31,148 bases of DNA from a candidate division Zixibacteria bacterium SM23_81 (GTDB taxonomy: Bacteria; SM23-81), in NCBI GenBank assembly GCA_001304015.1, contig LJUY01000027.1:1-31148 (forward strand), written 5' to 3'. The notes under the pieces were generated by a model. That model was given only the letters and a program-made list of their open reading frames with translations. It did not search any database and was not told the origin of the DNA. A program made the position numbers and the translations under genes. Positions 1,384-26,091 of the stretch are shown piece after piece. Position 1 is the first letter of the stretch. Every line of letters begins with the position of its first letter.

Positions 1384-3627
1384 TCACCTCAAGAACATCA
1401 TCTTGATGGTCTTCCCAAAACCCCCTGCCTTCAACCGACAAAAATACAAACCGCTGGCCACGTCTCTATCCTCGTTGTCACGCCCTTCCCATATGACCTC
1501 ATATTCACCAGCTCTCTGGACAATATCCACCAGAGTTCGCACCTCCTGACCTAGAATGTTGAAGATCTTCAGGGACACATGCGCATCCTTGGCACTCTGA
1601 TAACGGATCTGGGTGTTGGTGTTGAAGGGATTGGGATAGTTCTGACTTAAAGAATAGATGGTTGGCAAGTCCCTTGATATGTTAATATGTTCTTCGACTC
1701 CTGTGCCACCTGCAAATTCCAGAATGATCAAACCACAATCGTCATCGGCTACATAGACATGGCCTCCGGAGACCGCCACCTCGCGGGCGTCATCGGGAGT
1801 ATCGTAGAAACCCTCCTCCAAGGGATGAGCAGGATCGCTCACGTTTATCACCCGAAGACCAGCACGACCATCCGCCACATAGGCATAATTTCCGGAGACG
1901 GCCACACCCCAGGCCTCATCGGGAGTGTCGTAGAACCCTTCTTCATAGGGATGGGCAGGATCGCTTACATTGACCACCCGAAATCCACCATAACCTTCCG
2001 CCACGTAGACATAGCTCCCGGAGATCGCCACACCGTAGGACCACCCCGGGGTATCGTAGAAACCCTCCTCATAGGGCTTGGCAGGATTGCTCACATTTAT
2101 TACCCGAAGGCCGGAGTCCTCATCCGCCACATAAGCATAGTTCCCGGAAACTGCCACATCCCAGGCTTCATCCGGAGTGTCGCAGAAGCCTTCTTCATAA
2201 GGATGAGCTGGATCGCTGACGTTCACCACCCGAAGACCAGCCTCGCAATCCGCCACATACGCATAGTCGCCGGAGACAGCCACATCATTGGCCCAATCTG
2301 GAGTCCTGTGGAAGCCCTCCTGGTAAGGATGAGCGGGGTCTTTCACATTCACTATCACAAGACCCGACACGTCCACTACGTAAGCGTAACTCCCGGAGAT
2401 CGCTATACCCCAGAGCCAATCTGTTTCTAGGAAGCTTTCCTCGTACGGATGAGCAGGATCGCTCACGTTTATCACCCGAAAACCAGACCAATCCGCCACG
2501 TAGGCATAGCTCCCCTGTACAGCCATATCATAGGCACATATCGGGGTGACGAAAGAGCCTTCCTCATGAGGATGGGCAGGATCGCTCACGTCCACCACCA
2601 GAAGGCTCCTCGCATCTGCCACATAGACATAGCTTCCGGATACCACCAAACGACGGGGCATCCCCGGTGTAATATAGTAAGCTTCCTGGTGCGGATGGGC
2701 AGGATCGCCGACATTCACAACCTGAAGACGAGACGGATATTTTGAATCCGCCACGTAGGCAAAGTCCCCAGAAACCGCCACATCCCAGGCTCGCCCCAGA
2801 GTGTCGCAGAAGCCTTCCTCGTAAGGATGAGCAGGATCGCTCACGTTCACCACCCGAAGACCATGCGGTCCCGCTGCCACGTAAGCATAGGTCTTAGAGA
2901 CCACTACACCCGAGGCGTGAGTTATGTAGAAGCCTTCTTCGTAGGGATTGGCTGGATCGCTTACATTCACCACCCGAAGACCAGAATCTACTGCCGCCAC
3001 GTAAGCATAGCTTCCACAGACCGCCACACTATGGGCTTGATCAGGAGTATCGCAGAAGCCTTCTTCATGAGGATGCGCAGGGTCACTCACGTTCACCACC
3101 CGAAGACCAGAATCCTCAGCTGCCACGTAGCAATAGATCCCGAATACCTTTACATCGCGGGCATCATCTGGAACGTAATAAAAACCCAGCCTGGTGGGCG
3201 AGGAGGGATCCGTCACATCCCAGATCTCCAGACCTGCCACATCGCAGGCAATGTACAATCTGTTATCTCCATAGGAGAGTCCCTGCACGAAGCCGCGAGT
3301 ATGGATAGTCTCAGAAAGCTTAGAAGGATTACTCGGATCAGATAAATCCAATACATACACGCCTCCTCCTGAGCCACAGAATGCAATGCTCCGCACAGAG
3401 TCATAGGCTATCGCCTCGCACAGACCGAATGGCCAGTTGCCGACAAAGTGGACGTTTAGAGAGTCCGGCCACATCGTATGTGCATCCCCTTGCTTGGTCC
3501 AACCAGTAGATCGAGGTTCACTCATCCCCACCGGGGTAACTACATCTGTCCGCTGAATCGCAGAAGACCACACCGCAGCCATAACAGCCACCCCAACAAT
3601 CATACCAATGACCTTTTTCACAGACAT
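1384..3627 (-). CDS. Secreted LVIVD-repeat beta-propeller protein with C-terminal sorting domain
   Basis: This 747-residue protein is last in the four-gene surface-protein operon. The ATG at 3627 follows AGGTGG. Residues 1-25 form a signal peptide or anchor (VIGMIVGVAVMAAVW). From about residue 65 to 650 there are 14 units of about 42 residues with the pattern AVSGxYAYVADxxSGLRVVNVSDPAHPYEEGF; this is the LVIVD repeat, which folds into beta-propellers. Fourteen units would make two seven-bladed propellers or one large one. Residues from about 658 to 747 form the YPNPFN sorting module (VSLKIFNILGQEVRTLVD, GLYFCRLKAG, KTIKM). The repeats are highly uniform, implying recent internal duplication. 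The role is unknown; display or binding at the cell surface is inferred. The sorting-module DNA is nearly identical to that of the neighbouring upstream gene. Confidence 0.93.
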   Translation of the reverse strand: MSVKKVIGMIVGVAVMAAVWSSAIQRTDVVTPVGMSEPRSTGWTKQGDAHTMWPDSLNVHFVGNWPFGLCEAIAYDSVRSIAFCGSGGGVYVLDLSDPSNPSKLSETIHTRGFVQGLSYGDNRLYIACDVAGLEIWDVTDPSSPTRLGFYYVPDDARDVKVFGIYCYVAAEDSGLRVVNVSDPAHPHEEGFCDTPDQAHSVAVCGSYAYVAAVDSGLRVVNVSDPANPYEEGFYITHASGVVVSKTYAYVAAGPHGLRVVNVSDPAHPYEEGFCDTLGRAWDVAVSGDFAYVADSKYPSRLQVVNVGDPAHPHQEAYYITPGMPRRLVVSGSYVYVADARSLLVVDVSDPAHPHEEGSFVTPICAYDMAVQGSYAYVADWSGFRVINVSDPAHPYEESFLETDWLWGIAISGSYAYVVDVSGLVIVNVKDPAHPYQEGFHRTPDWANDVAVSGDYAYVADCEAGLRVVNVSDPAHPYEEGFCDTPDEAWDVAVSGNYAYVADEDSGLRVINVSNPAKPYEEGFYDTPGWSYGVAISGSYVYVAEGYGGFRVVNVSDPAHPYEEGFYDTPDEAWGVAVSGNYAYVADGRAGLRVINVSDPAHPLEEGFYDTPDDAREVAVSGGHVYVADDDCGLIILEFAGGTGVEEHINISRDLPTIYSLSQNYPNPFNTNTQIRYQSAKDAHVSLKIFNILGQEVRTLVDIVQRAGEYEVIWEGRDNEDRDVASGLYFCRLKAGGFGKTIKMMFLR
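1448..1551 (-). repeat. Sorting-module DNA repeat, copy 1 (partner 3747-3850)
   Basis: These 104 nt, inside the 3' end of the LVIVD gene, match 3747-3850 at 102 positions by direct reading. The upstream parts of the two genes are unrelated. The near-identity points to recent duplication or gene conversion of the tag-coding segment. Confidence 0.9.
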
Positions 3628-3682
3628 GACCCGCCACCTACTCTCAGAGAAGGCAGTTTCTTTATTTTACGGTGAACAGCTC

Positions 3683-5293
3683 TCACCTCATCAGCACCAT
3701 CTTGATGGTCTTGCTGACATCACACGTCCTCAACCGACAGAAATATAAACCGCTGGCCACTTCTCTATCCTCGTTGTCACGCCCTTCCCAAATGACCTCA
3801 TATTCACCAGCTCTCTGGACAATATCCACCAGAGTTCGCACCTCCTGACCCAGGAGGTTGAAGATCTTCAAGCTCACATGGCCAGCCTGTGGAGTATGAT
3901 AGCGGATCTCGGTACTTGTGTTAAAGGGGTTGGGATAGTTCTGGTGAAGAGTCCATTCCTTAGGCAATCCGCTCATGGGGCTCTCTAAAATGACTGGAAC
4001 GGGAACGCAATAGGTAAATTTCATCAGATCAGCGCGGATGACATAACCAGTGCCCGTGCCGCTGTCGATCACAGAAACGCTATTTCCCCTGCCAGGAACA
4101 AGATAGTGAAAGCCCAAAAGCCTCCACTCACAAGCCTGATCGGTACACTGATTTAACCAGACAGAATCAGGTGCGGCTCCTCCTCCCGGGCGGATTACGT
4201 AGAGAGCATTTGTGCTGGCGGCGGCGGTCACAGGCAGGGCAAACTCGATACGGTACAAGCCTGCAAAGGGAATATCAGGTGTAAAGGTGGCTTGAGCACC
4301 TGGATTTTGGGGCCGAACAGCATATCGGCTGGTGAGATTGTTTATCCCCGGGCAATTAGCCCCTACGTTGGCCGTCTCCCATTCACCCACCTCTTCCACA
4401 TATCCAGGGGGGCCATCATCATTATTGACTACAATTCGTATGCTTACCCCCTCTCCAGTCAGGGGTATTGGAATGCAAGGTTCATCGGCATCATCGCTGA
4501 TGATCTTCAGGGTATCATCAAAGATTTGATCCTCTAAAGGCATAAAGCGAATGGTAAAGTCCTCAAAGCTCCTGGGCTCGATATACACTGGGACGCTGGG
4601 CTCATAAAGAAAAAAGGCGTTGGTTGCACACATCGTCTGTTGTACTGTCAGGCCAGTGCCTCCTATGTTGTAGATGCGGAGCTCCCAATCTTTATGGTCT
4701 AGTACATCCACCTGTCCGTAAGCGTAAGCGTTTCGCCGCTCCGGCTCGATATCCAGCTCACTTGGGCCTAGAATAAATCGGGTCGCATCGGCCCGAAAGA
4801 TATTCCCAGATGTGCTGGTGCTGTCGTTGACCACCATCACCGCGTTGACCATGCCCTCCGTCAGATAGTGAACGCCCAGATTGATCCAGTTGCCGCTATT
4901 GTAGTTCTGGTCGTGCCAGGAGGAATCAGGCGTGGTGCCGAAGGATGAAAGGACATACAATGCGTGATTCCTGGAGTCGCTAATCGGCGGCAAATAGAAA
5001 GCGACGGCATAGTAGCCAGCGGTTGTGATGTCCGGTGTCCAGCGAGCCGTTTGTCCGATGTTGCTGGGATTTTCCATCTGCACGTAATAATGCTCACCAC
5101 GCCAGCCAAAGCCGTAGAGATAGACCCATGTTGAGCCCGTCATAGTGTAGTGAGGCGTCCCCTGACAGTCGTCCACGTAGAGGGTTTCTCTCTGGGTGAT
5201 CTGGGCCAATGTTTGAGGGACCGAGACCAAGCTGCAGATGGTTAGCGACAGGGTCACAGCAGCGAGGACACAAGTCTTCATATACACCCTCAT
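3683..5293 (-). CDS. Secreted protein with two golvesin-like domains and sorting domain
   Basis: I chose the ATG at 5293 because GAGGG lies 8 nt upstream; a GTG at 5302 would overlap that ribosome site. The product is 536 residues. A signal peptide ends near residue 31 (VSVPQTLAQ). Two copies of a domain like the golvesin C-terminal/Xly carbohydrate-binding-like fold follow, at about 36-178 and 285-430. Each has a TWTPDI..AGYY/LYRI strand, ALYV, a DSxW...Q segment, W..LG.HYL..G and a closing RAD..xF. Between them, at about 180-280, lies a HYDIN/ASPM-like beta domain (FTIRFMPLEDQIFDDTLKI). Residues from about 448 to 536 are the sorting module. These folds usually bind polysaccharides or other surface ligands, so adhesion is a reasonable inference. 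The gaps to the genes on either side are 55-58 nt. Confidence 0.88.
   Translation of the reverse strand: MRVYMKTCVLAAVTLSLTICSLVSVPQTLAQITQRETLYVDDCQGTPHYTMTGSTWVYLYGFGWRGEHYYVQMENPSNIGQTARWTPDITTAGYYAVAFYLPPISDSRNHALYVLSSFGTTPDSSWHDQNYNSGNWINLGVHYLTEGMVNAVMVVNDSTSTSGNIFRADATRFILGPSELDIEPERRNAYAYGQVDVLDHKDWELRIYNIGGTGLTVQQTMCATNAFFLYEPSVPVYIEPRSFEDFTIRFMPLEDQIFDDTLKIISDDADEPCIPIPLTGEGVSIRIVVNNDDGPPGYVEEVGEWETANVGANCPGINNLTSRYAVRPQNPGAQATFTPDIPFAGLYRIEFALPVTAAASTNALYVIRPGGGAAPDSVWLNQCTDQACEWRLLGFHYLVPGRGNSVSVIDSGTGTGYVIRADLMKFTYCVPVPVILESPMSGLPKEWTLHQNYPNPFNTSTEIRYHTPQAGHVSLKIFNLLGQEVRTLVDIVQRAGEYEVIWEGRDNEDREVASGLYFCRLRTCDVSKTIKMVLMR
3747..3850 (-). repeat. Sorting-module DNA repeat, copy 2 (partner 1448-1551)
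   Basis: This is the second copy of the 104-nt segment, differing from 1448-1551 at two positions. Similarity falls off quickly on both sides: the last residues before the stop read RTCDVSKTIKMVLMR here and KAGGFGKTIKMMFLR in the other copy. Confidence 0.9.
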
Positions 5294-5351
5294 CTTGCCC
5301 ACCCTCTTTTCAACTCAAAAAGGCGCCAGACAGACACTCATCATGAAACTC

Positions 5352-7139
5352 TCACCTCATCAGCACCATCTTGATAGTCTTGCCAAACTCACCTACCTTC
5401 AGCCGGCAGAAGTACAACCCGCTGGCCGCCTCTCGGCCCTCATCGTCTCTACCATCCCAGAGCGCTTCATACTCACCGGGCCTCTGCTCGACATCCACCA
5501 ATGTCCGCACCTCCTGACCTAGGGCGTTGAAGACCTTCAAGGTCACATGGCCATCTGCGGGAATCTGATAGTTGATCTTGGTACTTTCGTTGAATGGATT
5601 TGGATAGTTCTGGCGGAAAGCGTTAGTCTTGGGCACATCCGCCGAAGGAATCTCCGATACAACAGGGCTGGCGATCATGCCCAGCTTGGCTACAAAGGCA
5701 TCAACGCCGTTATTGATCACATCGAACGCCCCTGGTGTTGTTGGGAAGTCCGGCGACCAAGTATCTCCGATCACGTAGGCGTTACCGGCGCTGTCCACGG
5801 CGAGACCATAGCCTAAATCATCGTAACTTCCTCCCAAGAATGTGCCATAGACTAGGGTGTTTTCCAAGGGATTGAACTTGACAAAAAAACCATCTGCGCC
5901 ACCATTGTACGTGTTATCGAAAGCCCCGGTTGTGGTGGGAAAGTTAGCCGAGTGGGTAAAGCCGGTCATGTAGAGGTTGCCTTCGGAATCCATAGCGATG
6001 CTTCTACAACTTCCCTCAGAATCGCTTCCTCCCAAGAAGGTGCCATAGATAGGGCTTTTCCCCGTGGGGTCGAGCACAACCACAAAGGCGTCTGCTATGC
6101 CGCCATTATGGGTTCTATCGAAAGCTCCGCCAGTGGTGGGAAACTGAATGGAATAGGTTCGCCCCGTCACGTAGACGTTGCCAGACTCATCTGCGGCAAT
6201 GCCATTACCCCAGTCCCAATCAGCTCCCCCCAGGAAGGTAGAAAAACGGAGAGTATCGCCTGCTGCGCTAAGCTTGGTCACGAAGACATCCCTTCCACCG
6301 TTGTGGATGATATCAAAGGCGTTGTAAGTGGCGGGGAAATTATCCGAATTGGTCCTCCCAGTTATGTAGGCGTTACCAGCATCATCCACGACGATGTCAT
6401 AACCTCGCTCCTGAAGACTCCCCCCCAAAAAGGTGGCGTAGTCAAGATCGCTTCCCTCGGGATTGAGCTTGGCCACAAAGACATCCTCGCTGCCGTTGTG
6501 GGTGATATCGAAAGCACCGGCTGTGGTGGGAAAGTTAGCGGAACCGGTTCGTCCGATCACATAAGCGTTTTCGGCACCGTCAAGGGCGATGCTATAACCC
6601 AAATCGTAATCGCTTCCTCCCAGAAAGGTGGCGTAGTCAAGGGTGTCTCCCGTCTGATTGAGCTTGGCTACAAAAACATCGTAGTAACCATTGTGTGATT
6701 CATCGAAAGCACCTGCTGTGGTGGGAAAGTCGACCGCCCCACTATATGACTCGGCAAACCCCGTCACGTAGGCGTTGCCAACGTCGTCAACCATCACACC
6801 ATAGCCAGCATCGTCGCCGCTTCCTCCCAGGAAGGTAGCGTAGTCCAGGGCGTTACCTGTTAAGTTGATCTTGACCACATAAACGTCGCCATATCCGAAA
6901 CCGCCGTTGTAAGTGGTATCGAAGGCACCTGTAGTCGTGGGAAAATCCGCAGACTGGGTCTGTCCGGTCACATAAACGCAGCCATCATGGTCCACTGTGA
7001 CGTCGAGGCCCCGCTCAGCATCGCTTCCTCCCAAGAAAGTACTCCAGACCAGGCCTGTCTCATTGGCCCAGACCATACTCCCAAAGAAGAGCAATAAGAC
7101 CAGAGCGATGAGCATGAAAGCTTTAATGTTCGCGTTCAT
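5352..7139 (-). CDS. Secreted SBBP-repeat seven-bladed beta-propeller with sorting domain
   Basis: The ATG at 7139 is preferred: AGGAGG lies 8 nt upstream, whereas the GTG at 7148 sits on the ribosome site itself. The product has 595 residues. Residues 1-25 (AFMLIALVLLLFFGSMVWA) are a signal peptide. Seven units of about 65 residues follow, with the pattern LDYATFLGGSxxDxGxxIxVDxxGNAYVTGxTxSxxFPTTxGAFDxxxNGxxDVFVAKL. This is the SBBP repeat, and seven units give one complete propeller. Residues from about 508 to 595 are the YPNPFN sorting module (QNYPNPFNESTKINYQIP, VRTLVD, GLYFCRLKVGEFGKTIKM). SBBP proteins are extracellular, but their ligands are mostly unknown. The gene is second of four intact genes in the operon, 55 nt after the kelch gene. 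Confidence 0.94.
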   Translation of the reverse strand: MNANIKAFMLIALVLLLFFGSMVWANETGLVWSTFLGGSDAERGLDVTVDHDGCVYVTGQTQSADFPTTTGAFDTTYNGGFGYGDVYVVKINLTGNALDYATFLGGSGDDAGYGVMVDDVGNAYVTGFAESYSGAVDFPTTAGAFDESHNGYYDVFVAKLNQTGDTLDYATFLGGSDYDLGYSIALDGAENAYVIGRTGSANFPTTAGAFDITHNGSEDVFVAKLNPEGSDLDYATFLGGSLQERGYDIVVDDAGNAYITGRTNSDNFPATYNAFDIIHNGGRDVFVTKLSAAGDTLRFSTFLGGADWDWGNGIAADESGNVYVTGRTYSIQFPTTGGAFDRTHNGGIADAFVVVLDPTGKSPIYGTFLGGSDSEGSCRSIAMDSEGNLYMTGFTHSANFPTTTGAFDNTYNGGADGFFVKFNPLENTLVYGTFLGGSYDDLGYGLAVDSAGNAYVIGDTWSPDFPTTPGAFDVINNGVDAFVAKLGMIASPVVSEIPSADVPKTNAFRQNYPNPFNESTKINYQIPADGHVTLKVFNALGQEVRTLVDVEQRPGEYEALWDGRDDEGREAASGLYFCRLKVGEFGKTIKMVLMR

Positions 7140-7194
7140 TCTATTCACCTCCTTTTGACTAATATGAGCTGTGAATTAGAAAAGGCGTTTTCCC

Positions 7195-8487
7195 TCACTT
7201 GAGCAGCACCATCTTGATAGTTTTGCTAAACTCACCTGCCTTCAACCGGCAGAAGTACAAACCACTGGCAACTTCCCCACTCATGTTATCTCGCCCATTC
7301 CAGGTTACGGTACAACTGCTGGCCTTCTGCTCAACATCTAACAAGGTCCGAACCTCCTGTCCCAGAGTATTAAAGATCCTCAAGTTAACATAGCCTTCTT
7401 CGGGGATTTGATAGCGGATTTCAGTCGAGGCATTGAAGGGATTGGGATAGTTCTGAGAGAGCCGGTACGCTTCAGGCAAATCAACGGGCAGGGAGGTAGG
7501 CTCAACGGGGACAGGATAATCCCCGCCGCCAAACGTCCAGGTCTCATCGTTATAATCAACATCCCACCCGCCAAACAAAACCAGCAAATTTGATTCATCC
7601 ATGCTGGTCTCGGAGAGGGCAAGGACTATTCTAGCCGAGGGTTGAGTAGTATTCGCATCCTGGGTCCAGTTTCTATCGGTGAGATCATAAACCCAGGTCT
7701 TATCGTTATAACCAGCAGCATCCCACCCGCCGAATAAAAGCACTTTGCCTCCCCCGAGATAAGCTATAGCATGGTCGCGCCGTGCTGAAGGCTTCGCTGA
7801 AGGGTTTTGCTGAGTCCAGGTGCTCTCGCTGAGATCATAGAGCCATGTTCCATCGTTATACCCATCAGCATCGTATCCACCAAATAAAAGAACCTGATCC
7901 TCACCGATATATGCCATGTCATGTCCATGGCGCGGCGAGGGTTTTTCTGGAGGACTTTGCTGAGCCCAGGTGTTCTCGCTAAGATCATAAATCCACGTGT
8001 CACCGATAACTTTAGTCTGATCCCCGCCAAATAAAAGCACCTGATCCCTGCCGATGTAAGCCATAGCATGACAATATCGCCACGGTGGCTTCAATGAAGG
8101 GTTTTGCTGATTCCAGGTGTTCTCGCTGAGATCATAGACCCAAGTGTCATCGAAAATATCCTCCCAGCCGGACCCACCAAATAAAAGCACCTTATCTCCG
8201 CCGATGCAAGCCATAGCATGACGGATGCGCCTCGGCGGTTTCGATGTCGGGTCTTTATGAATCCAGGCGTTGGCGCTGAGATCATAGATCCAAGTCTCAT
8301 CGGTTGAGCTTGAAGTAGCAGTGCTGCCACCAAACAGAAGCACCTGATCCTCACCCGCATAGGCCATAGCATGGAAGTGTCGCGCCAATGGCTTCGATGC
8401 AGGATATTGCTGGGTCCAGTCGTCAAGGGCATCTGCCACAGAAAAGAAAATACAAACCATGAATAAACCATAAATAACTGATTTCAT
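7195..8487 (-). CDS. Secreted kelch-repeat beta-propeller protein with sorting domain
   Basis: This 430-residue protein is the first intact gene of the surface-protein operon. The ATG at 8487 follows AAGGGGGCG at about 10 nt. Residues 1-20 are a signal peptide (SVIYGLFMVCIFFSVADA). Six units of about 50 residues show the kelch pattern: HAMAYIGxDQVLLFGG, then DxTWIYDLSENTW, then a QQNPSxKPxxR linker. The sixth unit is more diverged. Residues from about 343 to 430 are the sorting module (LSQNYPNPFNASTEIRYQIP, GLYFCRLKAGEFSKTIKM). Six units suggest a six-bladed propeller. No galactose-oxidase active-site residues are apparent, so a binding role is more likely than catalysis. Its leader RNA would contain the relic at 8548-8586. 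Confidence 0.93.
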   Translation of the reverse strand: MKSVIYGLFMVCIFFSVADALDDWTQQYPASKPLARHFHAMAYAGEDQVLLFGGSTATSSSTDETWIYDLSANAWIHKDPTSKPPRRIRHAMACIGGDKVLLFGGSGWEDIFDDTWVYDLSENTWNQQNPSLKPPWRYCHAMAYIGRDQVLLFGGDQTKVIGDTWIYDLSENTWAQQSPPEKPSPRHGHDMAYIGEDQVLLFGGYDADGYNDGTWLYDLSESTWTQQNPSAKPSARRDHAIAYLGGGKVLLFGGWDAAGYNDKTWVYDLTDRNWTQDANTTQPSARIVLALSETSMDESNLLVLFGGWDVDYNDETWTFGGGDYPVPVEPTSLPVDLPEAYRLSQNYPNPFNASTEIRYQIPEEGYVNLRIFNTLGQEVRTLLDVEQKASSCTVTWNGRDNMSGEVASGLYFCRLKAGEFSKTIKMVLLK

Positions 8488-17515: not shown

Positions 17516-19702
17516 TCACCTTCTTCCTATGATCGTCTTGCCGGCGCCCACATTGCCAGCTATATCGATGGCCTTGATCACGATGACGTGTTCACCAGAG
17601 GAAAGGGGCTCTGTGACGAAGGAAAATTCCTCCTCAGGACCATCTAAGACCTCATCTCTGGGCGGGAGCGCCTTCCAATCCCCGGCGTCTATCGAATACC
17701 AGAGCTCGGCGATGGAGCTCAACTCATCGATTGCCTGGCCCGATACCTGATACCGGCCTTCATCGCCAGGCTGGCCATCGACCTCCATCACCTTAGGTGG
17801 CGTGTTGTCTATTACAAAAGGATCGCTGACTTTCTCAGCTGATAGGGCCTGTCCCTCCGGATTGTCCGGACTGTCTGTGGCTTTTACTCGCAACAGGTAT
17901 GTTCCATCAGGGAACGCTTGGCCGTCCCAGGCATAGGTGGAGTTCCTCACATCTTCCTTCAGAATCTTCCACTCTTGCTCTTCTTCCCCACGAAAGTAGA
18001 GATCGTAACGGAGACGATCCCCATTGGGATCTTGGGTCTGCCAAGTGACCTTTCTGACTCCCGGCCCCAGCCTGTCTTTCCCCAAAAAAAGGTCAGATGA
18101 GGCCTCGCCCTGATCTGCAAAGCTGGAACTCTTTCCCTCCCTTCGGGAGATGTTGGTTCCCCTGCCCCCCTCTATGGTGGGATGATGGACGTAGACTCCG
18201 GTAATCTTGGGTGCTAGATTCCGCTGCACATAGGCCAGCCAGACCCTTTCCAAAGTGGGCGTCAGAGTCTCTTTGGAGGTAGAGAGCTTTACCCGCCACT
18301 GGATAAATCGGGCCGGGGGACTTTCGATGGCCTCCCCCTGGGTACTCTCGTAGGGTGCAGACCACTGGCTCCATGTCTCATCCGGAACCTGACTATTGCC
18401 AGAGCGGGTTTGCAGAGACACGTGCGCCCCTCTTGGTTGACGAGCTTCCCAGCTAATGCGGCCCCAGCGAGCCACGAAGGTGGCATCATGAACCTCCGAC
18501 TCCAGGGTACCCTCCTTCTGGTAGTCGGTGCGGAGGCGGAAGACCTTGCCCAAATTTCCTGTGCCCACCAGGATGTCCCCATTTCGACCCCTGAACAAAG
18601 CTAAACTGTGGGATTCTTGTCCATCGACCAACCTGCTCCAGCTCCCATCTGCGGCCACCGCGTAGATGCGTCCCTGATCTCCCGTTCCCACGATCAAATC
18701 CCCCCGGGCACCAAGGATCATAGAGAAAACCATGACCTCTTCTGGCCCTGCCCAGAGAGTGACGGCTGACCCAAGGCCGTCGATGGCGTAGATGGTTGAG
18801 GCGCCTTTCACTTCCTGCACAGCGCCTTCACCGATAAAGCTTTGCATCAATTCAGACACCTCCCCGGTCTGGACCTCGGGGGGCTGAGCTTTCTCGGCTT
18901 TGGGTGGCTGAGGGGGTGGTCTTTGTCTGGGGCCTTCGCCACTAGTGGCTGCAGCATAGAGTTGCCCATCCCCATCGAATACCAGGCTACGGATCTCCTG
19001 CTCTGCTGCGTCGAAAAGCATCAATCCTTGACTCTGAGAATCAATTTTGTAGATCAGTCCATTGCCCTCTCCGCCCGCATACAGGCGACCTCGCCACCAG
19101 GTGAGAACAGTGACGTTTGTCTCCTTGGTATCATAAAAAAGCTCGCCACGACCATTGGAGTTCACCTTGAAGATCTTTCCCTCATCGCCGGTACCACAGT
19201 ATAAATTTCCGCTTTCATCGAAGGCCAGAGACCATACATGCTCCTGTTCCGTTGAGAAAAAGAGGTCTGCCTGGCCTTTGGGGGTAAGCCGGATGATCTG
19301 GCCGCCGGGCGAGGTGCCAGCGTAAAGGTTGTCGTGCCGGTCCACCGCAAGACTGAGGATCTCCAGTTCTTCAGAGTCGTGCCACAAAGTCAGTCTTGCG
19401 TTTTTGTCGATCTTGAAGATCTTCCCATTATTTCCAGTGCCGGCAAAAAGATTTCCCTTGGAATCCTGGACAAGACACCAGACGAAAGGCTCCCCCGTAT
19501 CGGCCAGGAGCTCGAGCACCGGACTGAGGGACACCTTGCCGTCGCTCAGAATGGAAACGTTCTCGGGCGTGCCTTTGTTAAACTGCTCGTGACTTCGCAC
19601 CTCCCAGTAGGATGTGGTCACGGCTTGGGCTAGCGTAACCATTGTACAGCCCATCAGGAGGGCGCACAGCAAAGCGAAAAGGCCTGCCCTATGAGAATTC
19701 AT
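17516..19702 (-). CDS. Large exported beta-propeller protein with C-terminal Ig/FN3-like domains
   Basis: The 728-residue product starts at ATG 19702 behind AAGGAGG at 8 nt. The N-terminus is hydrophobic and offers two readings: a lipobox LMGC (Cys19), or ordinary cleavage after AQA near 27. About residues 65-400 hold at least seven propeller units with the pattern LxFDxxGNLYxGTGxxGKIFKVxxxGxxxLF (NHL/SMP-30-like), interrupted near 250-300 by a Pro/Gln-rich insert. A middle region (about 420-525) has WGRISWEARQP and a WSQWSAPY segment. Then come an FN3-like domain (about 565-655, DPNGDRLRYDLYFRG...DGTYLLRVKATD) and a final Ig-like domain ending GNVGAGKT. It has no YPNPFN module, unlike the other large secreted proteins here. 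It follows the S55 peptidase gene on the same strand after 133 nt, so joint expression is likely. Confidence 0.85.
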   Translation of the reverse strand: MNSHRAGLFALLCALLMGCTMVTLAQAVTTSYWEVRSHEQFNKGTPENVSILSDGKVSLSPVLELLADTGEPFVWCLVQDSKGNLFAGTGNNGKIFKIDKNARLTLWHDSEELEILSLAVDRHDNLYAGTSPGGQIIRLTPKGQADLFFSTEQEHVWSLAFDESGNLYCGTGDEGKIFKVNSNGRGELFYDTKETNVTVLTWWRGRLYAGGEGNGLIYKIDSQSQGLMLFDAAEQEIRSLVFDGDGQLYAAATSGEGPRQRPPPQPPKAEKAQPPEVQTGEVSELMQSFIGEGAVQEVKGASTIYAIDGLGSAVTLWAGPEEVMVFSMILGARGDLIVGTGDQGRIYAVAADGSWSRLVDGQESHSLALFRGRNGDILVGTGNLGKVFRLRTDYQKEGTLESEVHDATFVARWGRISWEARQPRGAHVSLQTRSGNSQVPDETWSQWSAPYESTQGEAIESPPARFIQWRVKLSTSKETLTPTLERVWLAYVQRNLAPKITGVYVHHPTIEGGRGTNISRREGKSSSFADQGEASSDLFLGKDRLGPGVRKVTWQTQDPNGDRLRYDLYFRGEEEQEWKILKEDVRNSTYAWDGQAFPDGTYLLRVKATDSPDNPEGQALSAEKVSDPFVIDNTPPKVMEVDGQPGDEGRYQVSGQAIDELSSIAELWYSIDAGDWKALPPRDEVLDGPEEEFSFVTEPLSSGEHVIVIKAIDIAGNVGAGKTIIGRR

Positions 19703-19835: not shown

Positions 19836-21650
19836 TCACCGCTTCACCAAGATGGGCAGGGTGACCTGTCCGGAAAGAACGTAACGGGCAGGCAGTCTTT
19901 TCTCCTGGAGAACCACCTCGTGAGTCATACCCCCCTCACCCTCCTGGTGAGAACCACGCAGAACGGCCAGCGCCGACGGTGGTAGCGAGGGAAGCTCTTG
20001 ACCCTTGATGACTGCCCCGCTTCGGGGCATGACAAGCTTGACGATCAGCTCGTCCCTGTGCTCAATCTTTTTCAAGATATCGAGAATCTGAGCCAAATTA
20101 TGAAACCGAAACCTATGGGGAGCCCGTTTCTGCTCCCATAACATGCTGGCGGTGGCATCGCTAATCCTCAGGACCAGCTCACCCTCAGGAGCGTCATCGG
20201 GCACACGGATGGTGGTTCTGAGGGTCTGCTCCTCACCCCGGTAAGGCTCCAGAAAAACTGTCAGTTGAACTTCCTCGCCGGGCCTTACCGTCTGTTTGTT
20301 AGCGCGAGCGCTGGAAATGCGCGCCGTTCTTCTCCGGTTTTCCACCGAGATGTCTAAGGAAAATTCTCTCAGCGACACTTCCTCAAGATCGTTCTGAAGC
20401 AGAAGACCGATGATCTCACCGAGCTCTTTTGCCAATATGGTCTGGGGCGTCGCGCCAGCGAAAAGGTTTTTCACCTCCAGGTCGGGGTATCCATGGATGG
20501 CGATGCGGGCGTCTAATGCCATGGTAACATCTCCCACAGCTTTGCCAGTGGTGAGCAACGCGTTGAGAGTCGTCCAGGTCACCAAACCAGGGGAGAAAAA
20601 CTTGTTATCGATGATCTCAAAGAAGAATTTCTCAGATTCAGCCCCATCCTGGTAGTGGACCGCCAAGCGAATGGGTATCATGGAAGGGTTCTGTCCGATG
20701 TTACCCGCTACGCCGGAGCGCCGATCCTGACGAAGAACACCCAACTCCTTGGTGACCGAGGCCAGCTTAAAAGAGATGGCCTGACTGGGCATCACGGAGT
20801 GAACATAGGCTCCTGTTATGGGAAAATTCACGTCGCCTGCATAGAACATGGGATGTCCAAAGCCAATGATCCTATCTCCCTCTCGATAGGTGAGGGTTCC
20901 AAGAGCGCTGACGCTGATATCTCCACGAACCAGTTGAACCGCTAGAGAGGCCCCTGCCTCTAAGGAAACAGTTAACGATTCCTCTTGCGCCATGGAGCCA
21001 GCCTGTATAGGGGTCATGCCATACTTCTCGAAGAAGGGCGCCATCTGCGCCACCACACGCTGGTCGAATCCAGAGAGCATCACCGGTGTTTCCAGGGGCA
21101 CCAACGCTGGGGGCCGCGCTGCAGGTAACTGAGCATGGTCCGCCCAAAGCTGACCGGGAAGCAACACCTCTTCCATCCCGAACTCAAAGTCCAGGAGTTG
21201 GTCTGGAGCCCTGATGTCCTTCTGTCCTCGCCATTGATCGGCATCCATGCGATGCCATAGATCCAGCATTTCCTCGATGGGTGTGATCCCACCAATAGGC
21301 TGGGTTGAAAATGCCCAGCCATATGCCTGGGCGCCGATTAGCTTGCCCTCAATGTAAATGGGACTCCCGCTCATCCCCTGGATCAGGCCCGACTGGGCCA
21401 GAGGTCCTCCGCTGAACCTAGCCAGAATAATATCTCCACGGGGCCGGGCTTGCTTCAGGACGCCTAGGATCTCCACCTGAAACTCCTCGATCTGGGTGCC
21501 GGAAAACACCGTTTTCCCCACACCCACCATCCCCGCTTTGATCTGGTCCACGCGCATAAACTGAGTCTCGGCCAGCCCTTGGGCCAGATTGGGAATGGCA
21601 AACACGATCACATAACCGAGCACGATCAAGCTACGCCAAAGCAGTCTCAA
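19836..21650 (-). CDS. Exported SpoIVB-like S55 serine peptidase with Ser and His halves in reversed order
   Basis: Numbering is from a TTG at 21650, which has GAGG 8 nt upstream (604 residues); GTG 21659 is an alternative. Residues 3-24 are a signal peptide. An N-terminal block carries VGKTVFSGTQIEEFQVEILG and QGMSGSPIYIEGKLIGA, with the presumed nucleophile Ser94. A later block carries GTLTYREGDRIIGFGHPM, with presumed His266, followed by a GNIG segment. In SpoIVB, as I recall it, the GH block precedes the GMSGSP block, so the halves appear swapped here. No PDZ domain is evident. The C-terminal 170 residues look like beta-sandwich domains (VRPGEEVQLTVFLEPYRG). SpoIVB itself is a sporulation signalling protease; there is no sign of sporulation genes in this window, so a different role in the cell envelope is likely. 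Confidence 0.85.
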   Translation of the reverse strand: MRLLWRSLIVLGYVIVFAIPNLAQGLAETQFMRVDQIKAGMVGVGKTVFSGTQIEEFQVEILGVLKQARPRGDIILARFSGGPLAQSGLIQGMSGSPIYIEGKLIGAQAYGWAFSTQPIGGITPIEEMLDLWHRMDADQWRGQKDIRAPDQLLDFEFGMEEVLLPGQLWADHAQLPAARPPALVPLETPVMLSGFDQRVVAQMAPFFEKYGMTPIQAGSMAQEESLTVSLEAGASLAVQLVRGDISVSALGTLTYREGDRIIGFGHPMFYAGDVNFPITGAYVHSVMPSQAISFKLASVTKELGVLRQDRRSGVAGNIGQNPSMIPIRLAVHYQDGAESEKFFFEIIDNKFFSPGLVTWTTLNALLTTGKAVGDVTMALDARIAIHGYPDLEVKNLFAGATPQTILAKELGEIIGLLLQNDLEEVSLREFSLDISVENRRRTARISSARANKQTVRPGEEVQLTVFLEPYRGEEQTLRTTIRVPDDAPEGELVLRISDATASMLWEQKRAPHRFRFHNLAQILDILKKIEHRDELIVKLVMPRSGAVIKGQELPSLPPSALAVLRGSHQEGEGGMTHEVVLQEKRLPARYVLSGQVTLPILVKR

Positions 21651-21780
21651 AACCCTCACCTCTTTAAAATAAAAACAGTTGAGCTCTCGACATTTGCCCC
21701 TAATGTAACACTCGGCTTCTTCAAGGTCAACCAGAATTTTCTCCAAATCTCACGGCACAGATAGCTTTTGTACATTGAGA

Positions 21781-23364: not shown

Positions 23365-26091
23365 TTACCGCAACAAGACCATCTTCCTGGTCTTCACGAA
23401 ATCTCCCGCCTCAAGGCGATAGAAGTATACCCCGCTGGCTAGCTCTCTGCCGTTTGTATCTCTTCCTGCCCATTTCACCTTATAATAACCAGTCTTCTGA
23501 ACTTCGTCTACTAGGCTGCCCACTTTCTGACCCATCACGTTATAAATCTCTAATCTTACGGAAACGTCCTCGGGGAGCTGATATTTGACGTGGGTTGTGG
23601 GATTAAAGGGGTTGGGATAGTTTTGGAACAAGGCAAACACCTTGGGCAAAAGCGGCGGTCCAGCCGTGACCTGGATGGGCCCATAGGCTGTCCTCTGGCC
23701 CTGGAAATCCTCGCTCTCCAGCAGATACCAGTAGGTGACCTCGCTGCGCACCTGTTTGTCTACAAAACGATAGGACCGTGGGCTGGTCGAATTTCCGGCA
23801 CCATCGAGGAAGGCGACGAAGTCGAACTGGCCCTCTTTCTCGAGGCTCCGGGACAGATGAAATCCTCTGTTGTTCGTTTCGCTCTCCGTGCTCCACTCCA
23901 GGAGAATTCCCTCCGGCACAGGAGAGGCCTGAAGCGAGGAGAGCTGCACCGGAAGGGTTATGTCGCCGGTGATGTCGGAGATCTCAGAGGGGTTGAAGTG
24001 CTCGTCCCTAGCCTTGATGGCAAAATAGTACGAAGTGGCCGGCGAGAGACCGGTCACCTCCATGGATTCCGCAGAGCCCGAACCCTGGGGAGTGGGCTCC
24101 CCGACAACCTGGGTGGCACTTTCCCACCACGCCGCGGTGTCCGCCTTGGAAGGCAGACTGGTATCGTATCTGATGTCATACTCCGTAGCCGTTCCCAAGG
24201 TGGTATCGTCCCCAGGGGCGGTCCATGCCAGGAAAGCGCTAGAATCGCTTACGGTAGTGATGCGGAAATCGCCGATCCGAGAGGGAGCGGTGATGTCGAT
24301 GAAGGCCTTGATCTTTCCATAACCCCAAGTGTTGTTGGGAACCATACCGGTATAACCGTCGGTAATGGCATTGTCTATAAGAATGTTTTTGACCTGATCC
24401 GGGCTCAGATTGGGATTGTGCTCCAGCAGCAGAGCACAGACCCCGGCGGCGATGGGACACGCCATGCTGGTGCCCTGCATGATGATGTAATCAGCCGGAC
24501 CAGAGCAATTCAAGGTCAGACTGTCGTTGTCGATGATCTGCGAGCTACTATAGCTGAAGTTGTGATCCATGCAAGATGCCAGGGCACTCCCTCCTGCGGT
24601 GATAAATGGTAACTGCGGTCCGGCCCCATCGATCCGCGGACCTCGACTGCTGAAGGAGGCGATATCGTCCTGTGGCTGAGCGTACCACCAAGGCCCTCCG
24701 TTACAGTAATCTATCCAGCGATCCTTGGACACCCAGGCTCCCACGGAGATGGCCTGGTCGGCACAGGCGCCGCCCACGACGGTGTAGTCCGGATCGTAGC
24801 TTGGAAAGGTCACATCGCCATCATAACTGTACAGATGAAAATCCTGGGGAAGTAACGATTTCGGCGAATTGTCTGTCACCACTGCATAGTAGATTCCCGA
24901 CATGACTATGTCGGATTCAAAGAACTGAGACTCGGTACCTCGCGGACTGTGTGTCTGTGCGTAAGCCGTTGTGGTAATTGGCGCATAGGAGGCGTCCAGG
25001 TACTGAAGCTCGAGATCTACATGAACGCTGGTGTCCGCTCCATCGTACCAGGTCAGCAGGATGGGGATCTCGAGAATGCTGCTCACTTCGATCTGTACGG
25101 TATCGGCATCGGCCTTGGCCGCCACCGTCCCTGAGTAATGCTCGTCATCATTGGCCGAGTTGCCCGCCGAGGTCAAGTACAGAACGCCTTGGCTCACCGC
25201 CCAATCCTCTGTCTGGCAGTCTTCCTCACTGCCATCGTTGTATTCGTTGAGGCCGCCATAGCTGACCGAGATGATATCCACGCCATAAGTATCCACGGAC
25301 GCTATCACAGCAGAAATCATGGCCGCCTCCGTAGCGCCGGAATACGCGTCGCCACCGATCTTCAGAAAGACCAAGCCAGCCCCCGGAGCTGCTCCTTGAT
25401 ACGTGCTGTCCGACAACGTGCCCCTACCCACGGCGCTTCCCGTCACATGAGTGCCGTGAGGATGGGCACCTTCGATGGTGTCGTCCAGGCTGTCGGGGGC
25501 CATATGATAATCCTTGCCGGCCACCAGAGTGGGAATGTCAGCGTGAGTGGAATCCAGTCCCGAATCGTGGATGCAGACGACCACACCGCTGCCGTCCAGT
25601 CCCTGAGCCCACATGGAATGACACAACGCCCCTGCCGTGGCCAAGTTGTTGTCAGGAAAGCGTAGCTTCTCGGCGCTGCTCATACGGGCTATAAAATCCA
25701 GATCAGCCACTTCCAGAGCCCGAGAAACAGACAGGTCAGCGATCATGAAGCCGGTAGGATGATTCTCCAAAGGGGGAATCCATGTGTCCTCATATACTTT
25801 CACGTCCAGACCCTTCAGCTCTGAAAGCTCACCGGGACCTGGGTAGCTCCTGAAATGCAAAAAGACCTTCTGGCGAGATGGATCGGAGTCATCGACCCCC
25901 ACCCTGTTTTTGGCCATCAGGTCCAGTTCCCTCCTGGAGCCGTCTTCTAGAATCTTCTTCTTGGCACTCAATTGCGCCTGCAGGACACCCTCCATCTTCG
26001 ACCAGTGATTCACATCTTCATCGGCCCAAGTGGTGGTCGCCAAGAAAACCAACAAAGTCAGACCAGCCCATCTTACAAGACGAACGGCCAT
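23365..26091 (-). CDS. Secreted subtilisin-like (S8) serine protease with sorting domain
   Basis: The 908-residue precursor starts at ATG 26091 behind AAGGAGG. The signal peptide ends at WA-DED near residue 23. A propeptide of about 125 residues follows. The catalytic triad is Asp176 (CIHDSGLD), His215 (PHGTHVTG) and Ser542 (GTSMACP), with Asn311 (TSAGNS) as oxyanion residue. A segment of roughly 330-450 residues between Asn311 and Ser542 includes a beta insert that reads like a jelly-roll (YYAVVTDNSPKSLLPQDFHLYSYDG). After the protease come an FN3 domain (about 602-708) and a second beta domain (715-810, LQASPVPEGILLEWSTESETNNRGFHLSR). The sorting module follows (820-908, QNYPNPFNPTTHVKYQLP, GVYFYRLEAGDFVKTRKM). 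This module is more diverged than those at 1384-8487. It probably acts on extracellular protein. Confidence 0.97.
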   Translation of the reverse strand: MAVRLVRWAGLTLLVFLATTTWADEDVNHWSKMEGVLQAQLSAKKKILEDGSRRELDLMAKNRVGVDDSDPSRQKVFLHFRSYPGPGELSELKGLDVKVYEDTWIPPLENHPTGFMIADLSVSRALEVADLDFIARMSSAEKLRFPDNNLATAGALCHSMWAQGLDGSGVVVCIHDSGLDSTHADIPTLVAGKDYHMAPDSLDDTIEGAHPHGTHVTGSAVGRGTLSDSTYQGAAPGAGLVFLKIGGDAYSGATEAAMISAVIASVDTYGVDIISVSYGGLNEYNDGSEEDCQTEDWAVSQGVLYLTSAGNSANDDEHYSGTVAAKADADTVQIEVSSILEIPILLTWYDGADTSVHVDLELQYLDASYAPITTTAYAQTHSPRGTESQFFESDIVMSGIYYAVVTDNSPKSLLPQDFHLYSYDGDVTFPSYDPDYTVVGGACADQAISVGAWVSKDRWIDYCNGGPWWYAQPQDDIASFSSRGPRIDGAGPQLPFITAGGSALASCMDHNFSYSSSQIIDNDSLTLNCSGPADYIIMQGTSMACPIAAGVCALLLEHNPNLSPDQVKNILIDNAITDGYTGMVPNNTWGYGKIKAFIDITAPSRIGDFRITTVSDSSAFLAWTAPGDDTTLGTATEYDIRYDTSLPSKADTAAWWESATQVVGEPTPQGSGSAESMEVTGLSPATSYYFAIKARDEHFNPSEISDITGDITLPVQLSSLQASPVPEGILLEWSTESETNNRGFHLSRSLEKEGQFDFVAFLDGAGNSTSPRSYRFVDKQVRSEVTYWYLLESEDFQGQRTAYGPIQVTAGPPLLPKVFALFQNYPNPFNPTTHVKYQLPEDVSVRLEIYNVMGQKVGSLVDEVQKTGYYKVKWAGRDTNGRELASGVYFYRLEAGDFVKTRKMVLLR

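Follow-up and report, generated by a model that had tools for sequence, protein, structure and literature searches.

Gene organization at the locus

The window analysed here is a stretch of 31,148 nucleotides from the candidate division Zixibacteria bacterium SM23_81. Its minus strand carries a gene for a protein related to SpoIVB, the S55 family peptidase of Bacillus subtilis, in which the two halves of the catalytic domain appear in reverse order. The gene occupies exactly the span from a TTG codon (21648-21650), with a sequence resembling a ribosome-binding site in front of it, through the stop codon (Table 1). The open reading frame called by program begins at 21746, and residue numbers in that frame are those used here, counted from the TTG codon, plus 32 (Ser94 is 126 and His266 is 298). 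The next gene downstream encodes a secreted protein whose N-terminal part is a beta-propeller. Elsewhere in the window, at 1384-8487 (minus strand) and 23365-26091 (minus strand), are genes for secreted LVIVD/SBBP/Kelch repeat, Golvesin_C and subtilase proteins with FlgD-Ig or type IX-like C-terminal sorting domains.

Table 1. Features of the protease gene and its neighbour, with positions in the window
Feature	Position	Strand	Basis or remark
Permuted S55-like serine protease gene	19836..21650	minus	604 aa; TTG start; RBS-like GAGGTGAGGG upstream
Signal-peptide-like N-terminus, LRLLWRSLIVLGYVIVFAIPNLAQG	21576..21650	minus	Sequence; hydrophobic stretch in 97/97 aligned homologues
First catalytic half (Ser barrel), equivalent of barrel 2 in HtrA proteases and SpoIVB	21231..21569	minus	VIA-align, hhalign
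Ser94 codon (GMSGSP), presumed nucleophile	21369..21371	minus	205/207 homologues; codon checked
Linker between halves, part disordered, length variable	20961..21230	minus	Ser-His spacing 116-271; model pLDDT < 50
Second catalytic half (His barrel), counterpart of the N-terminal catalytic half of SpoIVB	20601..20960	minus	hhalign, separate model
His266 codon (GFGHP), presumed general base	20853..20855	minus	206/207 homologues; codon checked
Asp309 codon, candidate third triad residue, 43 residues past His266	20724..20726	minus	207/207 homologues
C-terminal alpha/beta region and Ig/MG-like beta domain	19839..20600	minus	Model DSSP; fold matches
Partner gene, secreted beta-propeller protein with Ig-like C-terminus	17516..19702	minus	Directly downstream of the protease gene

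Domain composition of the protease

The hydrophobic N-terminus, common to every aligned homologue, suggests that the protease is secreted to the periplasm or the cell surface. An AlphaFold model of residues 28-604 has a pLDDT of 90.3 and a pTM of 0.89, with model residues 122-148, in the linker, falling below a pLDDT of 50. A Foldseek search with the whole model returned no match under E 0.001. In other fold comparisons, the first half corresponds to barrel 2 as seen in SpoIVB and the HtrA proteases, and the second resembles the barrels of clan PA proteases.

The original prediction held that the protein lacks a PDZ domain and carries C-terminal beta domains instead. A Pfam search of the protease gave no match to the PDZ family, and the protein begins directly with the Ser barrel. 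As to the C-terminus, an Ig-like beta domain is indeed present, and residues 415-577 of the model resemble domains of complement C3 and alpha-2-macroglobulin (Z about 6); however, DSSP analysis of the model and the fold matches also reveal an alpha/beta region, so that this part of the protein is not composed of beta structure alone.

Order of the halves and spread of the family

In SpoIVB the catalytic His precedes the catalytic Ser. Here, the GMSGSP half containing Ser94 lies ahead of the GTLTY/GFGHP half containing His266, the two residues being 172 positions apart, as had been predicted. The same order is found in all 207 distinct homologues in which both halves are present, and it is therefore not a local accident of assembly. 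Membership of family S55 would call for His and then Ser within one domain, an order that neither the protease nor any of these relatives displays. Among all the loci read, including those of the 207 two-half proteins, three-half intermediates (Ser-His-Ser or His-Ser-His) were not found.

The family profile PF05580 matches the protease with 35.8 bits (cut-off 25) at its N-terminus only, residues 64-142 aligning with profile positions 113-192 of 210, which is the Ser half of the profile. The same N-terminal stretch aligns with the C-terminal ends of TIGR02860 and of the SpoIVB crystal chain 9lnf. Against TIGR02860, the SpoIVB equivalog model, the score of 35.9 bits lies below the curated cut-off of 305.

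Far from being a poorly described class, as had been supposed, the family is large and widespread, and many of the bacterial groups that have it do not form spores. A scan of genome contigs, made with a query alignment of eight rows, yielded at least 593 confirmed matches. The best 80 of these come from Acidobacteria, Planctomycetes (including anammox bacteria), Gemmatimonadota, Latescibacteria, Poribacteria, Zixibacteria, Cloacimonadota, KSB1, WOR-3 and Aminicenantes. In a domain-wide sample of 290 genomes, 69 have a PF05580 match; one of these is a full-length canonical match (3-210) and the others cover the Ser half only. The match to this profile in G106 (locus L150) resembles an ordinary V8-like protease and was rejected as a member of S55.

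The absence of visible sporulation genes, also part of the original prediction, is in keeping with a domain search of the source genome, in which Spo0A_C was not found. In two Clostridia, a permuted protease with an SLH (S-layer anchor) domain occurs in the same genome as a canonical SpoIVB; the SLH domains of these two proteases are N-terminal (L141:2058-4445, plus strand; L142:1187-3520, plus strand). Another genome encodes, alongside its SpoIVB, a short S55-like protein of canonical order (L143, minus strand, 270 aa; AAGH ... GMSGLP) with no room for a PDZ domain.

Homology of the two halves to SpoIVB

Both halves were expected to have counterparts in SpoIVB, and both do. For the Ser half, hhalign relates the sequence to the C-terminal half of SpoIVB with an E-value of 2.4e-17 and 42% identity. 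When the first 113 residues of the model are compared by VIA-align, they superpose on DegQ 127-243 (Z 7.2), DegS 142-252 (Z 6.6) and SpoIVB 9lnf 313-426 (Z 5.9), and barrel 2 of DegP and of Rv3671c is also among the matches. These Z-scores are middling (5.9-7.2), and they support the view that the N-terminal half of the protease has the fold of the C-terminal barrel of HtrA proteases and SpoIVB.

The match of the His half is weaker. This half aligns over 80 columns with SpoIVB 163-258, that is, on the His half of SpoIVB, with an E-value of 7e-5 that none of 150 column shuffles equalled on default settings. This value was obtained with 50 canonical SpoIVB sequences, 20 diverged ones having been added to 30 close ones; against the 30 closely related sequences only, the match is unconvincing, and on default settings with fewer sequences it is weak (E 0.0006-0.002). 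With one other hhalign parameter set, one of the 150 shuffles beat the score. The two segments align with the profile separately, and when the halves are exchanged in silico the alignment to SpoIVB grows from 84 to 168 columns and its score from 116 to 141, spanning both halves. SpoIVB and the permuted family also share a register of spacing, GTxT...GH and G-x4-[D/N]-x3-G-x2-G. Taken from these alignments, homology of both halves to SpoIVB appears well founded.

Modelled alone, the His half has a pLDDT of 91.8 and finds its best fold matches in V8, Esp, Spl and other clan PA proteases (Z up to 6.3). The structural aligner set it largely on barrel 2 of these proteases, a placement that the likeness of the two barrels in the clan PA fold may explain. 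The SpoIVB structure 9lnf was not among the fold matches listed for the isolated half, which is no evidence against a permutation.

Contact between the halves was approached through covariation computed over the 207 sequences, a set of 96 having been too shallow. Between the halves there are 14 pairs with z>=4, as against 0-1 in 15 full pairing shuffles and none in 12 near-neighbour shuffles. One pair, Q123-G295 (numbered in the open reading frame), joins the position that precedes the catalytic Ser by three residues to the one that lies equally far ahead of the catalytic His; another, L161-I294, links the helix after the Ser barrel with the strand before the His, I294 lying four residues ahead of it. 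Several pairs involving V346 look like a reflection of shared ancestry rather than of contact. Overall, the sequence evidence for the permutation is good, and the structural evidence also favours it, short of final proof.

Presumed catalytic residues

Among the 207 homologues, Ser94 is kept in 205, a figure that is partly selected since 80 of the sequences came via the GMSGSP pattern; His266 (206) and Asp309 (207) were not selected in that scan. A conserved His upstream of Ser94 would have spoken against the proposed active site; across the 207 homologues, no column other than that of His266 has His in over 30% of sequences. Ser94 and His266 are presumed to be the nucleophile and the general base. 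Asp309, a candidate third member of the triad, did not figure in the original prediction, and nor did the conserved partner gene. The spacing from His to Asp is 43-44 in 203 of 205 homologues and that from Ser to His is variable (Table 1). In chymotrypsin, the corresponding distance from His57 to Asp102 is 45 residues, which is similar. An invariable order of His, Asp and Ser is regarded as characteristic of clan PA proteases; in this protease the order is Ser94, His266, Asp309.

In the family, Cys occurs at both of columns 283 and 296 of the open reading frame in eight of the 207 members and at one alone in none, a pattern that likely marks a disulfide beside the catalytic His. One locus (L151) has tandem paralogues at 269-2047 and 2362-4311, both on the plus strand. 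The second is intact; the first has Ala in place of the Ser and Lys in place of the His and is likely a pseudoprotease.

Hoa et al. reportedly defined the SpoIVB family in 2002. In B. subtilis SpoIVB the residue aligned with Asp309 is Asn290, and 50 of 51 canonical sequences have Asn there; by this alignment, Asn290 is a candidate for the third catalytic residue of SpoIVB. In the crystal structure of SpoIVB (9lnf), Asp363 is about 24 Å from His236, and Thr393 has been suggested (PMC12502668). The position of Thr393 is occupied by Ala in the permuted protease.

The beta-propeller partner

Overall, 132 of the 186 loci that could be assessed have the partner gene directly after the protease gene; for the best 80 loci, taken from the at least 593 matches, the figure is 63. 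Among 60 relatives, a full partner is present in 15 of 16 genomes with a permuted protease and in one of 44 without (Fisher 5e-12, kinship of the genomes ignored). Presence was judged by coverage of both parts of the partner; matches in G012, G023, G041 and others, which did not span the propeller as well as the C-terminal part within a single frame, were discounted. In two genomes (G015 and G020) the genes for protease and partner lie apart, and the link between them therefore exceeds synteny. A natural fusion is found in one genome, where the protease halves, the propeller and the C-terminal region of the partner lie in a single frame of 1254 residues (L181:2125-5886, minus strand, the same gene as L144); its partner part is matched in three colinear short segments, with an E-value of 4e-9 for that single protein. 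The conserved gene pair points to a two-gene envelope system that had earlier gone unremarked.

Relation to known proteases

With SpoIVB, the protease shares the GMSGSP motif of the Ser half, the GTxT...GH motif of the His half and, probably, a two-barrel serine protease architecture and secretion. It differs in the reversal of the halves, the lack of a PDZ domain, which is N-terminal in the SpoIVB equivalog, and Asp309 in place of Asn290; it also has additional alpha/beta and Ig-like domains and a propeller partner, and no tie to sporulation. The HtrA proteases (DegP, DegQ and DegS; S1C) are periplasmic, as the permuted protease may be, and their barrel 2 resembles the Ser half (Z 6.6-7.2). 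However, these run from barrel 1 through barrel 2 to a C-terminal PDZ domain, whereas the protease starts with barrel 2 and its C-terminal domain is Ig/MG-like. It belongs to S55 in the wide sense and is not a SpoIVB.

A 'SpoIVB peptidase (S55)' has been widely detected in acidobacteria (PMC8841776), and the proteins in question are probably the same permuted ones, recognized by their Ser half. The passage concerned mentions neither the swapped order nor the partner gene.

Interpretation and alternatives

The reading we favour, and consider probable, is that of a secreted clan PA serine endopeptidase, sister to SpoIVB, with circularly permuted barrels, a single Ser94-His266-Asp309 site and an associated propeller protein. 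The signal peptide would carry the protein to the periplasm or surface. The chain would run from the Ser barrel through the variable linker into the His barrel, the two barrels packing as in SpoIVB. In the single active site formed by the two barrels, Ser94 would attack the peptide bond, His266 would act as base and Asp309 would orient His266. The alpha/beta and Ig-like domains may stand in for the PDZ domain of SpoIVB. The protease would be made together with the neighbouring propeller protein and probably held by it; the chances seem about even that the propeller does the work of a PDZ domain, binding the enzyme and either presenting substrates or restraining them. The targets of cleavage would be proteins of the periplasm or cell surface. 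SpoIVB itself cleaves SpoIVFA, leading to release of a membrane protease (PMC12502668), and by analogy a similar site-1 role for the permuted protease is possible.

The weak match of the His half to SpoIVB on default settings, together with its placement mostly on barrel 2 of V8, Spl and trypsin-like proteases, might indicate that the Ser barrel alone is related to SpoIVB and that the His barrel was recruited or duplicated and later gained its catalytic His, the likeness to a permutation being convergence. Such independent assembly is quite unlikely, as the His-half profile lands on the correct region of full-length SpoIVB with a score that no shuffle equalled, the reordered profile covers both halves, and the spacing of G, D/N, G and G and the positions of GTxT and GH are common to both. 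It might also be supposed that the fold is kept without cutting, as a scaffold whose conserved residues serve folding or propeller binding. Non-catalytic members do exist, as the degenerate copy at L151 suggests, but that copy adjoins an intact paralogue, and the near invariance of Ser, His and Asp over many phyla, where most other columns vary, makes this proposal very improbable for the family.

A further possibility concerns not the protein or its mechanism, which would be the same as in the permuted protease favoured here, but the direction of evolution: the permuted order may be ancestral for S55 and SpoIVB re-permuted. The permuted type is far commoner, a single one of the 69 genomes with a PF05580 match having a full-length canonical one. 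The Ser-half tree, which is unrooted, shows a single change in the order of the halves, on a branch without support. To our knowledge, all other clan PA proteases have the His barrel first, and the order in SpoIVB is therefore the simpler ancestor, which leaves the opposite direction unlikely.

Implications

In the literature searched, no report of a natural circular permutation of the clan PA fold was found. We are evenly divided on the broadest form of the proposal, in which the chymotrypsin fold has been circularly permuted in nature to the order Ser-His-Asp, the permuted form occurs in many phyla and far more commonly than SpoIVB, the enzyme and a propeller subunit make up a dedicated secreted protease of two components, and Asn290 is the true third catalytic residue of SpoIVB. 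A widespread family with exchanged barrels would be the first case known to us of this fold being circularly permuted in nature. The exchange would explain why annotation recognizes only half of a SpoIVB domain in these proteins. Finally, the permuted family offers a testable answer to the question of the third catalytic residue of SpoIVB, namely Asn290 instead of the distant Asp363 (PMC12502668).
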